A stretch of DNA of 64,000 nucleotides from Acidobacteriota bacterium. GTDB taxonomy: Bacteria; Acidobacteriota; Terriglobia; Acidiferrales; UBA7541. Where the stretch lies: NCBI GenBank assembly GCA_003223215.1, contig QHYH01000084.1, positions 62,001 to 126,000 of the forward strand. The letters are read 5' to 3'. The stretch's first letter is position 1; every line of letters starts with the position of its first letter. Of this stretch, positions 15,882-24,963 are shown piece after piece. The position numbers and the translations under genes were made by a program. The notes under the pieces were generated by a model, which did not search any database, was not told where the DNA came from, and saw only the letters and a list, made by a program, of their open reading frames with translations.

Positions 15882-16502
15882 ATGATGGTGTCGAACTCCA
15901 CGGATCTGCCGTGCGACGGGTGCGGGCAAGCGGCGTCGGCCGAACATATCGCGCGAAGGTTGCGGCGGCTCGAATGGGCGACGCGCTTTCGCCCCGTGCA
16001 CATCCATACGCTTTTGCTGGGCGGCGTCGCTCCTCGTGAGGACGCGGAGTTTCTCTACGCGCCGGGCGACGAATTCCGCGGAGAAGCGGCCGATCTGTTG
16101 AGAGCTGTGGGGATATCCACTCGAGGAAAGGCGCCGGCGGACATTCACCGAGAATTTCAAGCAGCCGGATTCTTCCTGACGCATCTTTTGGAGTGCCCGG
16201 TCGAGCAGCACGTCGCGTCGGAAGGGCGGACGGGGTCCGCGGCACGCGATCCCGCGATTTTGCTCACTGAACATCTCCCTTCGGTCGCCTCACGAATCCG
16301 GCGTTCCCTCAAGCCGCGACGCGTGATCTTGGTCACAGAAGTGCCTCCGGGCGTTGTGCAGGATATCCTTTCGATGAATTTGGGCTGTCCGGTTGTTTTG
16401 GACGACGGGAGGCCGTTTCGATTTAGCCCGTCAACTGAAGGAATGGGTATTTCCCGGTTCCAGGAGGTCCTCTCGGAGGCGGAGAGACGGCCTGAACGAT
16501 AG
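15882..16502 (+). CDS. hypothetical protein with N-terminal CxxC motif
   Basis: A 206-residue soluble protein I cannot assign. It begins with PCDGCGQ (Cys11, Cys14), followed by a helix rich in Arg, then HIHTLLLG and a region with FFLTHLLECPVE. This mixture resembles uracil-DNA-glycosylase-like conserved acidobacterial proteins, but I could not find a catalytic motif and do not claim the fold. There is no signal peptide. It is followed 101 nt later by the cytochrome c maturation cluster on the same strand, and a functional link is unproven. Confidence 0.6.
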   Translation: MMVSNSTDLPCDGCGQAASAEHIARRLRRLEWATRFRPVHIHTLLLGGVAPREDAEFLYAPGDEFRGEAADLLRAVGISTRGKAPADIHREFQAAGFFLTHLLECPVEQHVASEGRTGSAARDPAILLTEHLPSVASRIRRSLKPRRVILVTEVPPGVVQDILSMNLGCPVVLDDGRPFRFSPSTEGMGISRFQEVLSEAERRPER

Positions 16503-16603: not shown

Positions 16604-17044
16604 ATGAAAAAACAAGCAAAGTTTGGCGTCGGTATCGGAATCATCGTGGTAGCCCTGGGGTTTCTCGCTTGGCTCGGGTACGGCGAGAGCAAAACCTATT
16701 ACCACACGATTGCCGAGCTCGAGACCTTGAGCGGATCGGCGAGAACGCAGCGCATGCGCGTCGCCGGTACCGTGGAGGAGGGAAGTATCCGTCACCTTTC
16801 CGGGCGCATTGATTTCGTGCTGGATGGGGAAGGAAAGGCCCTTCCGGTTACTTACATTGGCAGCGATCCTTTGCCGGACACGTTTGTGGGCAAGGCGCAA
16901 GCCCTTGTGGAAGGCCGTCCCGGCCCGGACGGCCGATTTGTCGCGGAGCACGTACAGGCGAAATGCGCCTCCAAGTATGAAGCGGCCCCTGGGGGAGACA
17001 AGAAGGGCGCCGCAGCCAGTTCTACCCAGAGAAGTAGTATGTAA
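16604..17044 (+). CDS. ccmE: cytochrome c maturation heme chaperone CcmE, CXXXY variant
   Basis: CcmE receives heme from CcmABCD and passes it to CcmF/H for attachment to apocytochromes. The 146-residue protein has an N-terminal anchor (residues 7-24) and the OB-fold core (RVAGTVEEGSI, FVLDG, ALVEGR). The key site is Cys121 in CASKY, followed by Tyr125. In E. coli this is H-x3-Y and the histidine binds heme covalently; a cysteine at this place is the CXXXY class described in Desulfovibrio and archaea. A short polar tail follows. GAGAAGAG precedes the ATG. It is the first gene of the ccm cluster. Confidence 0.93.
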   Translation: MKKQAKFGVGIGIIVVALGFLAWLGYGESKTYYHTIAELETLSGSARTQRMRVAGTVEEGSIRHLSGRIDFVLDGEGKALPVTYIGSDPLPDTFVGKAQALVEGRPGPDGRFVAEHVQAKCASKYEAAPGGDKKGAAASSTQRSSM

Positions 17045-17080: not shown

Positions 17081-17716
17081 GTGGATGTATTTGGTTCCTT
17101 TGCGCTCCTTGTAGCTTTTGTGTGCGCCGTGTACGCCGTTGTGGGGGGCATCGCGGCGATCATCACGCGCCATCCGCTCTTGGTGAAAAGCGCACGCCAA
17201 GCAGGAATGGCCACCTGCGGCCTGATTTTCCTTGCAACCTTAAGCCTCGAATATCTGTTTTTCACCGACAATTTTTCCAGTGCCTACGTGGTCTCCCACA
17301 GTAACCGGGACCTTCCCGCGTTTTATAAAATTGCAGCGCTGTGGTCGGGGATGGAGGGCTCGCTGCTGTTTTGGAGCTTCCTCTTGGCCGTCTACGTTCT
17401 CACCGTATTGATCGCTTACCGCAATAAGAATGGCGAGTTGATGCCGTATGTCGGCGTGGTCATGGCCGGTGTGCAACTCTTCTTTCTTACGCTGAACAAT
17501 TTCGTGGAGAGCCCGTTCAAGGCTCTGGCTTCTCCCGGGGCAGGTGGCGTGATGAGCTTCATCACGCGAGCCGACGGCAACGGATTGAATCCGCTGCTGC
17601 AATACCCGGAGATGGTCATTCATCCGCCGAATCTGTATTCCGGTTATACGGGTTTTACGATTCCGTTTGCGTTTGCTCTCGGAGCGTTGCTGGCGCGCTA
17701 CCCAGGGGAGAAGTGA
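17081..17716 (+). CDS. ccmF: N-terminal part of cytochrome c heme lyase CcmF (split gene)
   Basis: CcmF is the integral membrane heme lyase subunit. This 211-residue piece starts at GTG and carries the first six or so TM helices, including SGMEGSLLFWSFLL and the HPPNLYSGYTGF segment with the conserved periplasmic histidine region. It stops at GEK, just before the conserved tryptophan-rich loop. The stop overlaps the next reading frame (TGATG). Compared with full-length CcmF, the two pieces together lack about 14 residues at the junction. This suggests an internal deletion with a frameshift rather than a natural domain boundary. Translational coupling could still give two complementing halves. 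Confidence 0.85.
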   Translation: MDVFGSFALLVAFVCAVYAVVGGIAAIITRHPLLVKSARQAGMATCGLIFLATLSLEYLFFTDNFSSAYVVSHSNRDLPAFYKIAALWSGMEGSLLFWSFLLAVYVLTVLIAYRNKNGELMPYVGVVMAGVQLFFLTLNNFVESPFKALASPGAGGVMSFITRADGNGLNPLLQYPEMVIHPPNLYSGYTGFTIPFAFALGALLARYPGEK

Positions 17717-19104
17717 TGTTCCAGTCGATGGGAATCCTTCTTGGCGCGCACTGGGCGTACGCGGTGCTCGGCTGGGGCGGATACTGGGGCTGGGATCCCG
17801 TGGAAAATGCCTCGCTCCTGCCCTGGCTGACGGGCACGGCCTTTCTGCATTCGGTGATGATGCAGGAGAAGCGCGGGATGATGAAAGTGTGGAACGTGTG
17901 GCTGGTTTTTTGCACTTTCCTGCTGTGCATGCTCGGAACCTTCCTCACCCGCAGCGGCGTCGTCAGCTCGGTACACGCGTTCGCGCAGTCGAACATCGGG
18001 CCCTGGTTCGTCGCGTTCATGGGCATCACGCTGGCAGTTTGTTTGGGCGCATATTTGAAGAACCGCGATTACCTGGCAAGCGAAAACCAACTGGATTCGG
18101 TAATCTCGCGCGAGTCGAGCTTCCTGTTTAACAATCTGCTTTTCCTGGTGGCATGCGTCGCAGTGCTTTCCGGCACGCTGTTTCCCGTCTTCTCGGAGTG
18201 GTTCACCGGTAACCGCATCAGCGTCGGTGCGCCGTACTTCAATCGAGTGAATATTCCCGTCGGGTTGTTGATCCTGTTCCTCACCGGGGTCGGGCCGCTT
18301 CTGGCGTGGAGAAAAACTTCCCGGGAAAGCCTGAAACGGAACTTCGGCTGGCCCCTGCTGACCGGCTTGCTAGCCGGCGGGGTGGGTTTCATTTTGGGAT
18401 TCCGCGGATTCTATCCGCTGGCAAGCTTGATCCTGTGTTTCTTCGTGGCCGCCACCATTTTGCTCGAATTCTACCGGGGCTCGAAAGTCATCCGCGCGCG
18501 CTCGGGGGCTTCGTTTGCCGCCTGTGCGATTGACTTGACCATGCGCAACACGCGGCGGTATGGCGGCTACGTCATTCATATGGGCATGGTGTTCGTATTT
18601 ATAGGGCTGGCCGGGACGGCGTTCGACCGCGACGTGCAAAAGAGCATGCAGGTGGGCGACTCGATGCACATTGGCCCGTACACGCTGGTTTTGCAAGCGA
18701 CGGACAGCAAACCGGAGAAGAATTACACGGCGCAACGCATGATGGTGGAAGTGCTGCGCGGCAACAAACCGATGATGATGCTGTTTCCGGAAAAGCGGAA
18801 TTTTATCACCAACAAAGAGAACGGGACGATGGTGGCCATCTATTCCACGCTGAAGGAAGATTTGTACGTGGTATTCGCCGGAATCGATCCGGATACGCAG
18901 GTGCCGGTGATCCATGCGTATCTCAATCCGCTCGTGAAATGGATTTGGTTTGGCGGCGTCACGGTGGTCTTTGGTACGCTGATCGCGCTCTCGCCAAATC
19001 GCCGCTCGGTGCTCGTGTTGGCACCCGCGCAACAACCTGCCACCGCGGAACCGCTGCCGCAAGGCGTCGTCGCGTCCCCCCTTCTGCGAGAGGGCCATGA
19101 CTAA
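17713..19104 (+). CDS. ccmF: C-terminal part of cytochrome c heme lyase CcmF (split gene)
   Basis: This 463-residue piece continues the CcmF sequence directly: FQSMGILLGAHWAY, then the WGGYWGWDPVENAS heme-binding WWD-type loop (about residue 20), LLGTFLTRSG and further TM helices, and a large periplasmic loop before the last helix. Its ATG overlaps the stop of the N-terminal piece by 4 nt (ATGA). A normal CcmF is about 650-680 residues in one chain, matching the sum of both pieces. No Shine-Dalgarno is evident apart from GGGGAG just before the overlap, which could permit re-initiation. Confidence 0.88.
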   Translation: MMFQSMGILLGAHWAYAVLGWGGYWGWDPVENASLLPWLTGTAFLHSVMMQEKRGMMKVWNVWLVFCTFLLCMLGTFLTRSGVVSSVHAFAQSNIGPWFVAFMGITLAVCLGAYLKNRDYLASENQLDSVISRESSFLFNNLLFLVACVAVLSGTLFPVFSEWFTGNRISVGAPYFNRVNIPVGLLILFLTGVGPLLAWRKTSRESLKRNFGWPLLTGLLAGGVGFILGFRGFYPLASLILCFFVAATILLEFYRGSKVIRARSGASFAACAIDLTMRNTRRYGGYVIHMGMVFVFIGLAGTAFDRDVQKSMQVGDSMHIGPYTLVLQATDSKPEKNYTAQRMMVEVLRGNKPMMMLFPEKRNFITNKENGTMVAIYSTLKEDLYVVFAGIDPDTQVPVIHAYLNPLVKWIWFGGVTVVFGTLIALSPNRRSVLVLAPAQQPATAEPLPQGVVASPLLREGHD

Positions 19105-19615
19105 AAACCGCGCGCTCAGTCGAACGCTCGTTCTGTTGGGGCTGGCCACGCTACCCTTGATTGTTCCCGTCGGGGCACAGCAGTTCTCTGAGCGTGCCAA
19201 GAAAATCGGCTTTCAACTTAAATGCATGTGCGGTTCGTGCAGCATGACGGCGGCGGGCTGTTCGCATCCCGGTGGCGATTTCTCCGGTCCGTGTCCCACG
19301 GCGAAGGGGATGTTGCAGGAAGCCGAGCAGCACATCGCCAAGGGCGAAACCGACGAACGGGTCATGCAGGCGTTCGTACAGGAATTTGGAACCACTGTGT
19401 ATGCGGAGCCGCCGAAATCGGGATTTAGTCTGGTGGCCTGGGTCATGCCGACGGTTTACCTTGTACTCGGCGCGCTAGTGGTGATTTTCGTCATTTCACG
19501 CTGGGTGAAAAAGAACCCGTCGGAAACCACTGCCAGTACCGTTCCGGCAAGGCCCATCGCACCGGAACTTTTGGAACGCGCCAAGAAGCTGGCTGAGCGC
19601 GCGACGGAGGATTGA
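19097..19615 (+). CDS. ccmH: cytochrome c maturation thiol-reductase CcmH-type, cysteine-rich variant
   Basis: CcmH reduces or presents the apocytochrome CXXCH thiols to the heme lyase. The 172-residue protein has a signal peptide (about 1-27), a periplasmic three-helix domain and a TM helix (about 115-135). The active site is LKCMCGSC (Cys43, 45, 48) with further Cys55 and Cys66, not the plain LRCxxCQ of proteobacteria. It overlaps ccmF by 8 nt. The motif difference fits the atypical CcmE beside it. Confidence 0.88.
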   Translation: MTKNRALSRTLVLLGLATLPLIVPVGAQQFSERAKKIGFQLKCMCGSCSMTAAGCSHPGGDFSGPCPTAKGMLQEAEQHIAKGETDERVMQAFVQEFGTTVYAEPPKSGFSLVAWVMPTVYLVLGALVVIFVISRWVKKNPSETTASTVPARPIAPELLERAKKLAERATED

Positions 19616-19618
19616 GCC

Positions 19619-19987
19619 GTGGCGGCGACTCCTCTTTTTGCAGCCATGCTGGGCGACTCGGGAGACTGGGCGGTTCTCGGAGCCTGCCTGATGCTCGCTG
19701 CCGCCGTCGCGCTTTTCATTTTCTACATTCAGCCGGATGCTTCCGATCTTGCGCCGCACCGCACGAAGTTGGATCAGCTGCTCGAACGGCGCGACACGAT
19801 TTACGACAATCTGCGGGATTTGCGCTTTGAATACCGCTCCGGAAAATATTCCGACGACGACTTTGAGGCTATGAAAGCGGCTTTGGAAAATGATGCGGCG
19901 CTGGTCCTCTCGGAAATCGATCAAGTCACGGAAGCACAAGTGCGGCGCCCGCGGGGCGCCCATCCCGCGGACCGGAGTGCGCAATGA
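19619..19987 (+). CDS. CcmI-like cytochrome c maturation protein, short form
   Basis: A 122-residue membrane protein from a GTG start. It has one TM helix (about residues 18-40) followed by a coiled coil with LDQLLERRDTIYDNLRDL and a 'RSGKYSDDDFEAMK' turn. This matches the first TM and leucine-zipper domain of CcmI, which holds apocytochromes for CcmF/H. The C-terminal TPR domain of full CcmI is absent. It lies between ccmH and an unknown secreted protein, overlapping the latter by 4 nt. Confidence 0.72.
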   Translation: MAATPLFAAMLGDSGDWAVLGACLMLAAAVALFIFYIQPDASDLAPHRTKLDQLLERRDTIYDNLRDLRFEYRSGKYSDDDFEAMKAALENDAALVLSEIDQVTEAQVRRPRGAHPADRSAQ

Positions 19988-21339
19988 TACGCTCGAACGC
20001 CCGTCTTCGTGCAGCGGCCGCGCTGGCCTTCGCGTGGGGCTTGGCGTCACTGGGAACCGCGCAAGCGGGCACGGTGCGCGGAACGGTCAGGAACGGCACT
20101 ACGGGCCAGCTTGCTCCGGGCGTGGAGCTTACCCTGGTGCAGCCGATGGGCGGCATGCAGGAACTGGCACACATGAAGAGCGGTCCGCAAGGCGAATTCA
20201 GCTTTGACAGCCCGAATGTCGGCACCCAGCCGCTGTTGGTGCAGGCGATGTATCGCGGCGTCCGTTTCAATGCCGCGGTGCCGCCGGGCAACAGCAACGC
20301 CACCGTGCAATTGGACATCTACGAACCCTCCAAGGATCCCAAGACGATTGACGTTCCGTCGCACTTCGTGATCTTCCAGCCCAACGGCGCGAGCCTGAAG
20401 GTCGCGGAAGAATATCAGGTCGAGAACAAGTCGCAACCGCCACAAACGTATTTCCGGACGGATGGAACGTTTGACTTTGCCCTGCCGGAACAAGGAGAAC
20501 TGGAAAGAGTGGACGCGGTCGGGCCGGCAGGAATGCCCTTACAACAACTTCCCATCGACAAGAAGAAGAATCACTATTCGATCGCATTCGCGTTTCGCCC
20601 GGGCAACAATTCGGTGCGTTACTCCTACGATGTCCCGTATCCGAGCAACACCGCGGCGCTGAAGATTCCGACGATTTATCCGGGAGGAAGGCTTCTGCTC
20701 GTAGCTCCACCGAGCATGCAGGTCAGTGGTGACGGGTTTTCGGCGCAAGGACAAGAGCAGGGGATGAATCTGTACCTGCGGCAGGACGTTCCGGCCGGAA
20801 CTCTAGTGGCCGTGAATGTTTCGGGCACGGCACCAGCCGGTAGCGCAGCGGTGGGGACGGATCAGGGCCAACAGGGCCGAGACGCCCAGGAAGGCGGCGG
20901 CGCGGAGTCCGCGGGCGCAGAGATTCAGGCGGTGCCGGGCAGGCTGGACGCGATGAAATGGCCGTTGCTCGGCGGATTTGTGGTTGTCTTTGGAGCGTTT
21001 GCCTACCTGCTTTCTCGCAAGATGGTTGTGCCGGTTGAAGGGGTAGAAGTGGCCGCTGCGGTCGGGGCAACCGCAACAGGAAAGGCCAAGAAGTCGAAAG
21101 CGCAGCCCGCCTCCGCGCCTGCGCCGGTATCACCAGCTGCGCCTGCAGCGAAAGCACCGTCCAATGGGCCGGCCAGTTTGTCGGATGTGGATGCAGTCAT
21201 TGGCACCAGCCTGGATGCGCTGAAAGAGAGGCTCTTCCGGCTGGAATTGCGACATCAAGCGGGAACCATCACCGAAGAGGATTATGCGCAGGAGCGCGCG
21301 AAGGCAGAGAAAGTCTTGCGCGACTTGCTACGAGGCTGA
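19984..21339 (+). CDS. ccm-cluster protein with carboxypeptidase-regulatory-like domain and C-terminal membrane helix
   Basis: The 451-residue protein has a signal peptide (1-28, cleavage after AQA), a beta-sandwich resembling carboxypeptidase regulatory (transthyretin-like) domains (about 29-120), further beta-rich sequence to about 290, a TM helix (about 320-340) and a Pro/Ala linker. It ends with a short helical segment, LRHQAGTITEEDYAQER, that echoes the coiled-coil segment of the CcmI-like protein before it. Most of the protein would lie in the periplasm. I know no named function. Its place in the ccm cluster, with a 4-nt overlap, suggests a role in apocytochrome handling. Confidence 0.75.
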   Translation: MIRSNARLRAAAALAFAWGLASLGTAQAGTVRGTVRNGTTGQLAPGVELTLVQPMGGMQELAHMKSGPQGEFSFDSPNVGTQPLLVQAMYRGVRFNAAVPPGNSNATVQLDIYEPSKDPKTIDVPSHFVIFQPNGASLKVAEEYQVENKSQPPQTYFRTDGTFDFALPEQGELERVDAVGPAGMPLQQLPIDKKKNHYSIAFAFRPGNNSVRYSYDVPYPSNTAALKIPTIYPGGRLLLVAPPSMQVSGDGFSAQGQEQGMNLYLRQDVPAGTLVAVNVSGTAPAGSAAVGTDQGQQGRDAQEGGGAESAGAEIQAVPGRLDAMKWPLLGGFVVVFGAFAYLLSRKMVVPVEGVEVAAAVGATATGKAKKSKAQPASAPAPVSPAAPAAKAPSNGPASLSDVDAVIGTSLDALKERLFRLELRHQAGTITEEDYAQERAKAEKVLRDLLRG

Positions 21340-21616: not shown

Positions 21617-22321
21617 GTGACGGCGCCGCCATTTACCCCTACAGGAATCCGCTTTGCAAACATCGAAAAACGCTTCGGAAGCCTTTACGCCCTGCGGCGG
21701 GTGAGTTTGGAGGTTCGCCCCGGCGAGCTCGTGGCGTTTGCGGGAAGAAATGGTTCTGGCAAGACGACCCTCCTGCGCATTGCCGCGCGGCTGGTGCGCG
21801 CTTCTTCAGGATCGCTGAGTTTTCCCGGCCCCAGCGGCGAGACGACGGATTCCGCTTCGCGAACCGGCTTTGTGGCGCATGCCACGATGGTTTACGACGA
21901 GCTGACCGCGGAAGAGAACCTGCTGCTCTTCGCGCGGTTGCAGGGAATCGGCGATCCGGGAGCACGAGCCGGTGCGCTGCTCGGAGAAGTTGAGCTTTCC
22001 GAGCGTCGCAAGTCGCTGGTACGGACGTTTTCCCGCGGGATGCGCCAGCGCGTGGCCATTGCGCGGGCGCTGCTGAATGAGCCGGCCGTATTGCTGCTCG
22101 ACGAACCGGCCACGGGGCTCGATCCGCAAGGCATCACCTGGCTGGCGCATACGCTCAGCCGGATGCGCGTCGAAGGGCGTACCGTGCTCATGAGCGTGCA
22201 CGGGGAGTCGGCGATTTCGGCGCTGGCAACACGCGCGGTTCGGCTGGATGCCGGTTCGGTTGTCGCCGACACCATGGCGGGGTCGGATATGCGTGCGATT
22301 CTTTCCTTTGCGAACGCCTAG
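21617..22321 (+). CDS. ccmA: heme exporter ATP-binding subunit CcmA
   Basis: The ATPase of the CcmABCD complex that releases heme-loaded CcmE. The 234-residue ABC domain has Walker A GRNGSGKTT (43-51), the signature FSRGMRQR (near 140), Walker B VLLLDEP (about 157) and the H-loop (SVHGES). It starts at GTG with GAGG 6 nt upstream. The gene is followed directly by ccmB. Confidence 0.93.
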   Translation: MTAPPFTPTGIRFANIEKRFGSLYALRRVSLEVRPGELVAFAGRNGSGKTTLLRIAARLVRASSGSLSFPGPSGETTDSASRTGFVAHATMVYDELTAEENLLLFARLQGIGDPGARAGALLGEVELSERRKSLVRTFSRGMRQRVAIARALLNEPAVLLLDEPATGLDPQGITWLAHTLSRMRVEGRTVLMSVHGESAISALATRAVRLDAGSVVADTMAGSDMRAILSFANA

Positions 22322-22996
22322 ATGGCAGTACTGGCCGACACCACGGTGTTGCTGGGCAAGGAGCTCCGCACGGAATTCCGCTCGCGGGAACTGCTGACGA
22401 CCACGGTGGTCTTCATCCTGGTAGTCGTCGTGCTTTTCAGCTTCACCTTTGACCCCAGCGCGGGCGAGTCACGGCGTTTCGGCCCTGGTCTCCTATGGCT
22501 TTCGTTTCTGTTCGCCGCGTCGCTGATGCTGCAGCCGTGCTTTTTGCGGGAGCAGAATAACGACACGCTGAGCGCGCTGCGGCTGTCGGTGCGTGATCCG
22601 TTTTCCATCTTTCTCGCTAAGCTAAGCGCGAACACGCTTTTTTTGTTGCTGACGGAAGTCTTGATGCTGCCGGTTTTTGCGATTCTCTATAACGTGCATA
22701 TCCTGGGGGTCTTCCTGCAATTGGTGCTGGTTTTGTTTTTGGGCAGCCTGGGCGTGGCCATTCCCGGAACCGCATTCTCCGCGATCTCGGCGCAGGCGCG
22801 TATGCGCGAACTGATGTTGCCTCTGCTGCTTCTGCCTCTGCTGACGCCGGTGCTGATTGCAAGCACCGAGGCCACCCGCGCGCTACTTGACGCGAACCCG
22901 GTGCTGCGGGCGGACTGGCTGGGATTTTTGGCCGGCTTCGACGTAGTTTTTTTGACGGCGCTGTGGCTTTTCGGCGAATATTTATTGGAGGAATGA
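22322..22996 (+). CDS. ccmB: heme exporter membrane subunit CcmB
   Basis: The 224-residue membrane protein has six hydrophobic segments and the CcmB N-terminal pattern (KELRTEFRSREL), then FLREQNNDTLSALRLS, the conserved cytoplasmic loop. It pairs with CcmA and CcmC. The start follows the ccmA stop without a gap. Confidence 0.93.
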   Translation: MAVLADTTVLLGKELRTEFRSRELLTTTVVFILVVVVLFSFTFDPSAGESRRFGPGLLWLSFLFAASLMLQPCFLREQNNDTLSALRLSVRDPFSIFLAKLSANTLFLLLTEVLMLPVFAILYNVHILGVFLQLVLVLFLGSLGVAIPGTAFSAISAQARMRELMLPLLLLPLLTPVLIASTEATRALLDANPVLRADWLGFLAGFDVVFLTALWLFGEYLLEE

Positions 22997-23103
22997 GAGA
23001 GAATGTATCTAGCGTGCCGTGCCGATGGTTTGTCAGGTAGATGGGGACGCGCGATGGCTCGCCCATATGCCTGTCTACGGCCGCTTTAAGGGAGGCGCGA
23101 TTG

Positions 23104-23778
23104 GTGAAAAGTTCTTTCAAGGCGGCCATCCTTTTCGTTTTGATTGCCGTCACCGGGTACCTCGCTTTCTATTACGCGCCCATCGAAAGGTCCATGGGTG
23201 TAATCCAAAAGATTTTTTATCTCCACATTTCCTGCGCGTTCAGCGCGTTTGTGGCCTTTGGAACTTGCTTCTATGCGAATCTTCGATACGTCTTCACACG
23301 AGAGGCGAAATCGGACTGGTTGGGCGTATCGGCTGCGGAAGTCGGGCTGGCCTTTATCACCGTGGTGCTGGTCACCGGGCCGATTTGGGCGCATCCGGTG
23401 TGGGGAATCTGGTGGACCTGGGATGCCCGGCTGACGCTGACGTTTGTGCTCGGCCTGCTTTACCTTTCCTATTTGCTGTTGCGCTCGATGATTGAAGAGC
23501 CGGACAAGCGGGCGCTGTTTAGCGCGCTGTTCGGCATTTTTGCGTTTCTGGATGTACCGCTGGTGTATTTCTCGATTCGCTGGTGGCGCACGCAGCATCC
23601 GCAGCCGGTGATTCTGGGCGGGCCGGGCTCGGGACTGGAGCCGCGTATGCGCGTTTCCTATTTGCTAATGTGGGGCGCGCTGACCGGGGTGCTGATTCTC
23701 CTGGTGAGCGCCCGGTACCGGCTGGAAGCGTTGCGCGCCAGCGTGGAAGATTTGCGAAGGGAGGCGGAGGTTCGATGA
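23104..23778 (+). CDS. ccmC: heme-handling protein CcmC
   Basis: CcmC loads heme onto CcmE. The protein (about 224 residues) has six TM helices, the tryptophan-rich WGIWWTWDARLT loop and the flanking conserved histidines (YLHISCAF and, further on, RWWRTQHPQ). I chose GTG 23104 because GGAGG (23091-23095) lies 8 nt upstream. TTG 23101 and the in-frame ATG at 23041 are alternatives; the latter would add an unconserved leader. It overlaps ccmD by 4 nt. Confidence 0.92.
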   Translation: MKSSFKAAILFVLIAVTGYLAFYYAPIERSMGVIQKIFYLHISCAFSAFVAFGTCFYANLRYVFTREAKSDWLGVSAAEVGLAFITVVLVTGPIWAHPVWGIWWTWDARLTLTFVLGLLYLSYLLLRSMIEEPDKRALFSALFGIFAFLDVPLVYFSIRWWRTQHPQPVILGGPGSGLEPRMRVSYLLMWGALTGVLILLVSARYRLEALRASVEDLRREAEVR

Positions 23779-23919: not shown

Positions 23920-24963
23920 TTGCAGGGGAAGAAGCGCGTCGGGATCGTATTGTTCCAGCTTGGCGGGCCGGATTCGCTGGAGGCGGTCGAGCCGTTTCTG
24001 CTGAATTTGTTCCTCGATCCGGACATCATTCCGCTCGGGCCGCTCGGATGGCTGCGCGGTCCCGTCGCAAAATGGATTTCCTCGCGGCGCTCGATTCCCG
24101 TGGCGAAAAAATACGCGGAGATCGGCGGGCGCTCGCCCATCGGAGCGCTCACGGAGCGGCAGCGAGCGGCGCTCGTCGAGGCGCTCGCGCCGCATGTCGA
24201 TCCTGTGGCCGTGACCGCGATGCGTTACTGGCATCCTTTGACAAGTGAAGCCGTCGAGTCTCTGCGCAAAGCGGGACCGCTCGATGAGATCGTGCTTCTG
24301 CCTCTTTATCCGCACTACTCGTTCGCGACGACTCTCAGCAGCTTGAAAGAATGGCGCCGCGTGTATGGAGAGCCGGACGGCGGGCCGCCGGAACGTACGA
24401 TTGACCATTTCTACGATCATCCGCTCTACGTTCAGGCACTGGTCGAACGGATTGGCTCCGTGCTGCGCCAGTTCGAAGACGGCGCGAGCATTCATCTGGT
24501 TTTCAGCGCGCATGGACTGCCGATGAGCCTGGTCGAGAAAGGCGATCCGTATCCCAAGCAGATCGAGGGCACCGTGCGCGCGGTTTGCGAATCGGGGGCC
24601 AAGCAATACGATTCGTGGCCGAGGACGCATCTGCTTTGCTACCAGAGCCGCGTGGGTCCGGCAAAATGGCTCTCGCCGGCGCTGACGGAAACCATTGAGA
24701 AGCTCGGCCACCAAGGTGTCAAGGAAATGCTGGTGGTTCCCATTTCCTTCGTGACGGAACACATCGAGACGCTTCACGAAATCAACATCGAAGCACGGGA
24801 AGAAGCAGAAAAGTTCGGGATCAAGACGTTCCGCATGATGCCGGCGGTGGGAGATTCGCCGCTGTTTATCGCAGCGCTCAAGGACCTGGTCTTGCGCACC
24901 CTGGGAATTGCAGCGCCGGCGGAACCGTTGACTTCGAAACCCATGCCTGGCCCGACCGCTTGA
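23920..24963 (+). CDS. hemH: ferrochelatase
   Basis: Inserts Fe2+ into protoporphyrin IX (or coproporphyrin) to make heme. The 347-residue protein begins with the family pattern GIVLFQLGGPDSLEAV, carries the metal-binding His198 in SAHGLP and the conserved glutamate in VTEHIETLHEI (about 287-297). The start is TTG one nucleotide after the ccmD stop. Its location at the end of ccmABCD links heme synthesis with heme export. Confidence 0.95.
   Translation: MQGKKRVGIVLFQLGGPDSLEAVEPFLLNLFLDPDIIPLGPLGWLRGPVAKWISSRRSIPVAKKYAEIGGRSPIGALTERQRAALVEALAPHVDPVAVTAMRYWHPLTSEAVESLRKAGPLDEIVLLPLYPHYSFATTLSSLKEWRRVYGEPDGGPPERTIDHFYDHPLYVQALVERIGSVLRQFEDGASIHLVFSAHGLPMSLVEKGDPYPKQIEGTVRAVCESGAKQYDSWPRTHLLCYQSRVGPAKWLSPALTETIEKLGHQGVKEMLVVPISFVTEHIETLHEINIEAREEAEKFGIKTFRMMPAVGDSPLFIAALKDLVLRTLGIAAPAEPLTSKPMPGPTA

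Follow-up and report, generated by a model that had tools for sequence, protein, structure and literature searches.

System I* of cytochrome c maturation, in which CcmE carries a CXXXY motif, is reportedly to be credited to Allen in 2006 and Goddard in 2010, and the title of the 2006 paper is said to state that CcmH is absent from it. The available text of PMC3601427 describes System I* in archaea, delta-proteobacteria, Chloroflexi and Firmicutes. This 2011 review, in that text, gives the motif as CPSKY in 25 of 36 bacterial genomes, with four having phenylalanine for the tyrosine, and reports CcmH in about a third, the absence of CcmH not being characteristic of System I*. The CcmE proteins of archaea have been described as CXXXY almost throughout. 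A Cys-rich CcmH without LRCXXC was noted earlier beside a CXXXY CcmE in Archaeoglobales, in the available part of the Geoglobus ahangari genome paper (PMC4600277).

The locus described here lies in the window, a stretch of 64,000 nucleotides from a draft acidobacterial genome (8.8 Mb, 279 contigs, 97.65% complete). Its operon is a known bacterial System I*, not a new kind of system. The CXXXY motif is found in its CcmE (CASKY), and the absence of CcmH as a mark of System I* does not apply, with a CcmH at 19097–19615. In common with System I* are the Cys for His in CcmE, a CASKY/CPSKY loop, a CcmI-like protein and an operon in which no ccmG was seen; the window has in addition a Cys-rich CcmH and a secreted protein, here called J, whereas the Desulfovibrio system that was tested in E. 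coli lacks CcmH and CcmG. The Ccm system of Archaeoglobales, as far as described in the available part of PMC4600277, shares the CXXXY CcmE and a Cys-rich CcmH lacking LRCXXC (LX[SN]C[EDH]C), but it is archaeal and has two CcmH flanking a duplicate ccmF, while the window is bacterial and has one five-Cys CcmH and J. Classical System I (E. coli ccmABCDEFGH, locus L202) shares homologues of CcmE, CcmF, CcmH, CcmB and CcmC and the four conserved His of CcmF. It differs in the His of CcmE, the LRCPKC of CcmH, the presence of ccmG and a long CcmH/CcmI, and its ccm stretch yielded no J.

Two extra features, the Cys-rich CcmH and J, make the window locus a well-marked System I* variant. The sequence-only reading of this DNA had suggested a variant System I; that it is a variant was correct, but the variant had already been described as System I*, and its Cys is common in the sampled Acidobacteriota. 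No description of the bacterial CcmE/CcmH pattern or of J, and no paper joining Acidobacteria with CcmE, CcmF and CcmH, was found in the literature searched, most subscription papers being outside it; absence in print is not claimed.

Organization of the operon

The ccm genes of the window are on the + strand in the order ccmE, ccmF, ccmH, a gene for a short CcmI-like protein, J, ccmA, ccmB, ccmC and a ccmD-like gene (Table 1). Of the named acidobacterial loci, 54 extend 6 kb or more downstream from ccmE, and 48 of these have the order E-F-H-I-J-A-B; those deviating from it are L102, L113, L114, L115, L133 and L134.

Table 1. Features of the ccm operon in the window, with positions and the basis of each assignment
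Feature	Position	Strand	Basis
ccmE, C-type, 146 aa	16604..17044	+	Pfam CcmE (PF03100) 70.2 bits, above the curated cut-off of 24.6; no other CcmE found in the genome
CASKY heme-carrier motif, C121 and Y125	16964..16978	+	codons read directly
ccmF, first piece, with the first of four conserved His	17081..17716	+	Pfam Cytochrom_C_asm; His column
ccmF, second piece, with WGGYWGWDPVEN and the other three conserved His	17713..19104	+	Pfam CcmF_C 2.1e-60
ccmF break	17713..17716	+	alignment with 12 relatives; stop and possible restart overlap as GTGA
ccmH, Cys-rich, 172 aa	19097..19615	+	Pfam CcmH (PF03918) 56.8 bits, above the curated cut-off of 25; AF2 model; the only CcmH match in the genome
CcmH motif C43-x-C45-x2-C48-x6-C55-x-H57-x8-C66	19223..19294	+	replaces LRCxxC in alignment
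short CcmI-like protein, 122 aa	19619..19987	+	no Pfam match; place conserved in relatives
J, with secreted beta-sandwich domains, a single long TM-like helix and a helical hairpin at the C-terminus	19984..21339	+	AF2 model; ccm-linked family
ccmA-like ABC ATPase	21617..22321	+	NCBIfam CcmA models match below cut-offs; operon position
ccmB	22322..22996	+	Pfam CcmB 109.4 bits
ccmC	23041..23778	+	TIGR01191 116.2 bits (below cut-off of 186); Pfam Cytochrom_C_asm
ccmD-like small membrane protein, 47 aa	23775..23918	+	by eye; start overlaps the end of ccmC

The atypical Cys-rich CcmH, the short CcmI-like protein and the secreted partner pointed out in the sequence-only reading are all present (19097–19615, 19619–19987 and 19984–21339). 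That picture of the operon held for the neighbours of ccmE, but the split of ccmF into two pieces (17081–17716 and 17713–19104) had been missed. The name CcmI-like for the product of 19619–19987 is our reading of its sequence; at 122 aa the protein is too short for the TPR domain of CcmI and has no Pfam match. The ccmA-like ORF also matches other ABC families of NCBIfam below their cut-offs, and the ORF holding the ccmD-like gene matches no Pfam family. Pfam and NCBIfam scans of the operon ORFs gave no ccmG, and ResB, of System II, had no match in the genome.

Two neighbouring genes lie at the edges of the operon. The region 15882–16502 holds a 206-aa gene with no Pfam or NCBIfam match, which is also upstream of ccmE in many relatives within the group. 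The ORF at 23920–24963, 3' of the operon, reads by eye like a ferrochelatase.

The heme-carrier motif of CcmE

The codons TGC GCC TCC AAG TAT at 16964–16978 encode CASKY as residues 121–125 of CcmE, with C121 at 16964–16966 and Y125 at 16976–16978. C121 aligns with the His of HDENY in E. coli CcmE – the classical heme-binding His is absent, with a Cys in its column. This bears out the original observation of Cys121-x3-Tyr125 in place of His-x3-Tyr. A search of the whole draft assembly gave this one CcmE match, and a phmmer search of PDB sequences matched solved CcmE structures weakly (1j6q, E 0.005). The nearest named relatives are from metagenome-assembled acidobacterial genomes, many of them labelled gp2 or Candidatus Acidiferrum.

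Among the CcmE relatives first fetched, 142 rows have a residue at the site: Cys in 132, and His in 10 that are from two other families of Acidobacteriota. A table of 221 ccmE stretches has 199 with Cys (182 CxxxY, 17 CxxxF), 22 with His (20 HxxxY, 2 HxxxF) and nothing else at the heme site, which speaks against a chance occurrence of the Cys. The loop in the Cys rows is nearly always KC[AP]SK[YF], with K120 in 193 of the 199 rows, S123 in 195, Y125 in 182 and F at position 125 in 17. Spirochaetota (CcmE in 27 of 100 genomes) were left out of the table, Desulfobacterota were outside the sample, and loci L203–L218 are outside all counts. The labels Chloroflexota, Bacillota-like and KSB1 each rest on one named locus (L140, L138 and L135, respectively), and two acidobacterial locus sets overlap, L117 and L149 carrying identical CcmF.

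On these counts (132/142 relatives, 199/221 stretches), the possibility of a rare Cys or a sequencing slip was rejected. Most of the sampled Acidobacteriota have the Cys, so the residue itself is not atypical but ordinary for the lineage. A second possibility, that another conserved His serves as the ligand, was also rejected. Among CcmE columns filled in at least half of the 199 Cys rows, none is more than 30% His, and therefore no other conserved His replaces the ligand. The sequence-only reading had itself named a Cys rare among close relatives, or an alignment with another conserved His at the ligand position, as outcomes that would count against it, and neither appeared.

A few loci depart from the usual forms. 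The CcmE of two Chloroflexota loci, L253 and L254, reads HGPEF (His and Phe) and falls within a set of CxxxF relatives, a possible Cys/His switch; one of these loci has J. In the CcmE of a Halobacterium noricense plasmid (L309:6950-7375), Cys and His are both missing from the heme site.

By analogy, C121 is probably the heme carrier in place of the textbook His, because of three reports on CcmE from other organisms, each cited here from the available part of its source. Desulfovibrio Cys-CcmE binds heme covalently (PMC3601427; D. desulfuricans in PMC9084895), C120 of M. acetivorans CcmE is important for heme attachment (PMC9084895), and noncovalent binding of ferric heme is described for D. 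vulgaris CcmE (PMC3884852). The D. vulgaris report suggests that C121 could hold heme noncovalently, through coordination of the iron and not by a thioether, but the covalent heme of Desulfovibrio Cys-CcmE and the importance of C120 in M. acetivorans make this unlikely. Judged by sequence, the bond between C121 and heme could be of either type.

An interrupted ccmF

The ccmF of the window is without 37 bases that are present in all 12 aligned relatives, which results in two overlapping ORFs. Elsewhere, ccmF is one ORF in 179 of the 181 relative stretches covering the gene. The other two, L088 and L090, also have it in two ORFs, with the break somewhat downstream of that in the window; these splits may be errors, or may mark a spot where ccmF tends to split.

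Loss of the 37 bases could mean that the operon is dead or altered in this genome or, conversely, that the assembly is in error. The frame-shifting gap sits in the only CcmF found (the genome has no second CcmF_C match), and nearly all relatives have the gene unbroken. However, the flanking ccm genes are open, and the two pieces, overlapping as GTGA, could be two coupled genes. Furthermore, no System II gene was found in the genome, so that without its sole synthase the organism would have no known way of making cytochromes c. A dead, altered or misassembled operon is somewhat less likely than not; the gap itself may reflect a fault in the assembly, a genuine interruption or a gene divided in two.

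The four His columns of CcmF are kept in 177–179 of 179 rows, in both CcmE classes. We equate them with the heme ligands known from E. coli CcmF. Because the His of CcmF are unchanged, the swap concerns CcmE and its partners, not the conserved His of the synthase. The P-His and TM-His pairs of CcmF are described in the available part of PMC10746174.

A Cys-rich CcmH

Where CcmH has its LRCxxC active site, the window protein reads LKCMCGSC..., with five Cys. Despite this, it remains a CcmH, by Pfam match and by predicted structure. Its AF2 model (mean pLDDT 85.5) is nearest to Pseudomonas CcmH 2hl7 (VIA Z 7.5, 73 residues, 3.4 A), followed by E. coli CcmH 2kw0 (VIA Z 6.7, 71 residues, 3.5 A), and the next, unrelated row has Z 3.9. 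Foldseek E values for 2hl7 and 2kw0 are just 0.2–0.4, which is modest alone. An NCBIfam scan of the protein matched a distant NrfF model alone, and phmmer against PDB sequences returned four weak, antibody-type matches.

In the group to which the window belongs (L062–L112), CcmH alternates between two forms, CMCGSC..CSHPGG..C and CMCGC..CNHVGC.

CcmF and a Cys-rich CcmH are fused in seven acidobacterial loci (L158, L166, L167, L179, L180, L188 and L191). All seven are C-type, and no such fusion is found in the H-type set. The fusions fit a tight partnership of CcmF and CcmH.

CcmE type and CcmH type

Motif cysteines were counted from the aligned CcmH motif in the 221 stretches, with signal-peptide Cys (as in the H-type locus L163) excluded. 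All 21 H-type stretches with a CcmH nearby have CxxC alone, and one H-type stretch has no CcmH. In the 99 CxxxY stretches with CcmH, 94 have at least three motif Cys, three have CxxC alone (L139, L251, L267) and two have other forms (L229, L259). The 94 rich cases include 82 that begin C-x-C and 76 with five Cys. CxxxF stretches with CcmH number 13 – 11 have CxxC alone and two have four Cys (L224, L234) – and another four have no CcmH. Since CxxxF CcmE is mostly found with CxxC CcmH, the Cys-rich CcmH tracks CxxxY and not Cys alone.

Many CxxxY stretches (83 of 182) show no CcmH. Whole-genome searches of 35 such genomes found CcmH elsewhere in 21, presence alone being scored, and none in 14; because of these 14, CcmH seems dispensable in some CxxxY genomes. 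Desulfovibrio is likewise without CcmH according to the available text of PMC3601427.

Ten named plasmid loci were added beyond the 221 stretches. Eight are H-type (Paracoccus, Sinorhizobium, Ruegeria, Cupriavidus, Caballeronia, Vitreoscilla, Methylophaga and Pseudonocardia), and by eye all eight have a CxxC CcmH. The other two are from Cytobacillus firmus and Halobacterium noricense; the Cytobacillus firmus plasmid, with a CPSKY CcmE, has a CcmH with two Cys that are not in CxxC.

The cluster in CcmH could be a structural or sensing metal site, for zinc for example, and not a redox centre. The five motif Cys of those 76 rich cases resemble metal ligands, as does a His two residues past the fourth Cys in much of the window's group. 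The spacing of the motif and its fifth ligand differ between lineages, though, and seven Bacillota-like CcmH have just three Cys, so that a metal site appears improbable.

The association of CcmE type with CcmH type could also be a matter of descent, with CxxxY CcmE, Cys-rich CcmH and J merely co-inherited as one old operon and no functional dependence between the CcmE ligand and the Cys of CcmH. The sequences were collapsed by CcmF identity. At 60% there are 42 groups: CxxxY has 21 rich, 3 CxxC and 2 other, CxxxF has 1 rich and 4 CxxC, and H-type has 11 of 11 CxxC. At 50% the number of groups falls to 12, and one of them is mixed in both traits. For a CcmF tree of 92 rows, 18 were hand-picked from the 59 named acidobacterial loci that have CcmH, and the remaining 74 were all the other loci with CcmH. 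The tree gave at least four changes per trait and three independent pairs, too few for a sign test to reach significance (p = 1).

With so few changes and three independent pairs, co-inheritance of the whole operon explains the association equally well. The group mixed in both traits and the CxxxF stretches also speak for co-inheritance; 11 of 13 CxxxF have CxxC, so that CcmH need not be Cys-rich when the carrier residue is Cys. Against it are the 60% groups, rich in 21 of 26 for CxxxY and CxxC throughout the H-type, and a separate Chloroflexota branch (L252, L255; CPTKY/CPTRY) in which CcmH also has four motif Cys. Co-inheritance without functional dependence is a serious possibility, if a little short of an even one. 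Counted by stretches the association is tight, but few independent events underlie it. The co-occurrence of the Cys, the unusual CcmH and the secreted partner across phyla thus supports the earlier suggestion that they form one set, but shared ancestry could explain it.

The J protein

The AF2 model of J has a mean pLDDT of 83.6, and in a single comparison the tail of J matched the profile of the CcmI-like protein with an hhalign probability of 98.5% over 47 columns. For the count of J, a stretch needed a ccmF close to its ccmE and 6.5 kb or more of flank, and J had to lie no more than 7.5 kb from ccmE. J is found in 98 of 141 such C-type stretches and 1 of 18 H-type; the other 43 of 141 C-type stretches have ccmF without J. 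The sole H-type locus with J has HxxxF and falls within a set of CxxxF loci. Stretches with less than 6.5 kb of flank comprise 31 C-type (J in 12) and 3 H-type (J in 0), and those without ccmF near comprise 27 C-type (J in 2) and 1 H-type (J in 0). A profile search found J in none of the eight H-type plasmid loci.

J near a C-type ccmE is found in Acidobacteriota, Chloroflexota, the Bacillota-like phylum, KSB1, Poribacteria and a Cytobacillus plasmid. When a profile built solely from acidobacterial J was run on 87 loci outside the phylum, 32 of them gave matches (33 ORFs, E values of 2e-31 to 1e-5). Among the loci listed with their J matches, the gene is mostly right after ccmF-H-I, and in L219, L259, L260 and L267 the J relative is upstream of ccmE. 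The annotated plasmid operon of Cytobacillus firmus (E-F-H, two hypothetical proteins, an ABC ATPase and ccmB) has the same order as the window, and its second hypothetical protein is a J relative by profile. The ccm cluster of Halobacterium encodes a J-like protein with a weaker match (haloarchaeal, E 2e-14). A tblastn search of plasmids with J gave nothing; profiles did recover the Cytobacillus relative.

In six Bacillota-like loci (L262, L263, L268, L270, L273 and L278), a second relative of J is encoded just upstream of ccmE.

No family of its own was found for J in Pfam (seven J scanned) or NCBIfam (five J scanned); the scans matched just a generic carboxypeptidase-regulatory domain model or weak, unrelated models. 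Comparison with PDB folds gave mainly beta domains of the M1-aminopeptidase type, at a TM-score of about 0.27 of the query.

Proposed mechanism

In the maturation route proposed for this locus, CcmABCD would move heme out and load it onto C121 of CcmE, by analogy with relatives, and Y125 is the likely axial ligand of the heme iron. CcmE would then pass the heme to CcmF, whose four His are unchanged in alignment. The Cys-for-His swap is accompanied by a CcmH with five Cys and one His for the single CxxC, and by J; they co-occur, and may also be linked in function. The extra thiols of CcmH would most likely supply thiol chemistry beside a sulfur-linked heme carrier. They might keep or release the CcmE thiol, and might reduce the CXXCH of the apocytochrome with no CcmG encoded in the operon. 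J and the short CcmI-like protein most likely hold the apocytochrome, as the TPR domain of CcmI does elsewhere; for J, this role is suggested because it shares the CcmI-like tail.

Taken as a whole, a System I* operon with C121 as heme carrier and a Cys swap accompanied by an altered CcmH and J is the likely explanation of the locus. More tentatively, the Cys-type Ccm may be a separate machine that has components of its own – a multi-thiol CcmH managing a sulfur-linked heme carrier, and J as probable apocytochrome holder – and not a stripped-down System I. If so, J would be an undescribed component of cytochrome c maturation. Annotation would gain as well, as J has no Pfam or NCBIfam family of its own that was found and is labelled a hypothetical protein in Cytobacillus. 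A Cys-rich CcmH that tracks the CxxxY CcmE, and a widespread, ccm-linked J, provide named genes for genetic work.
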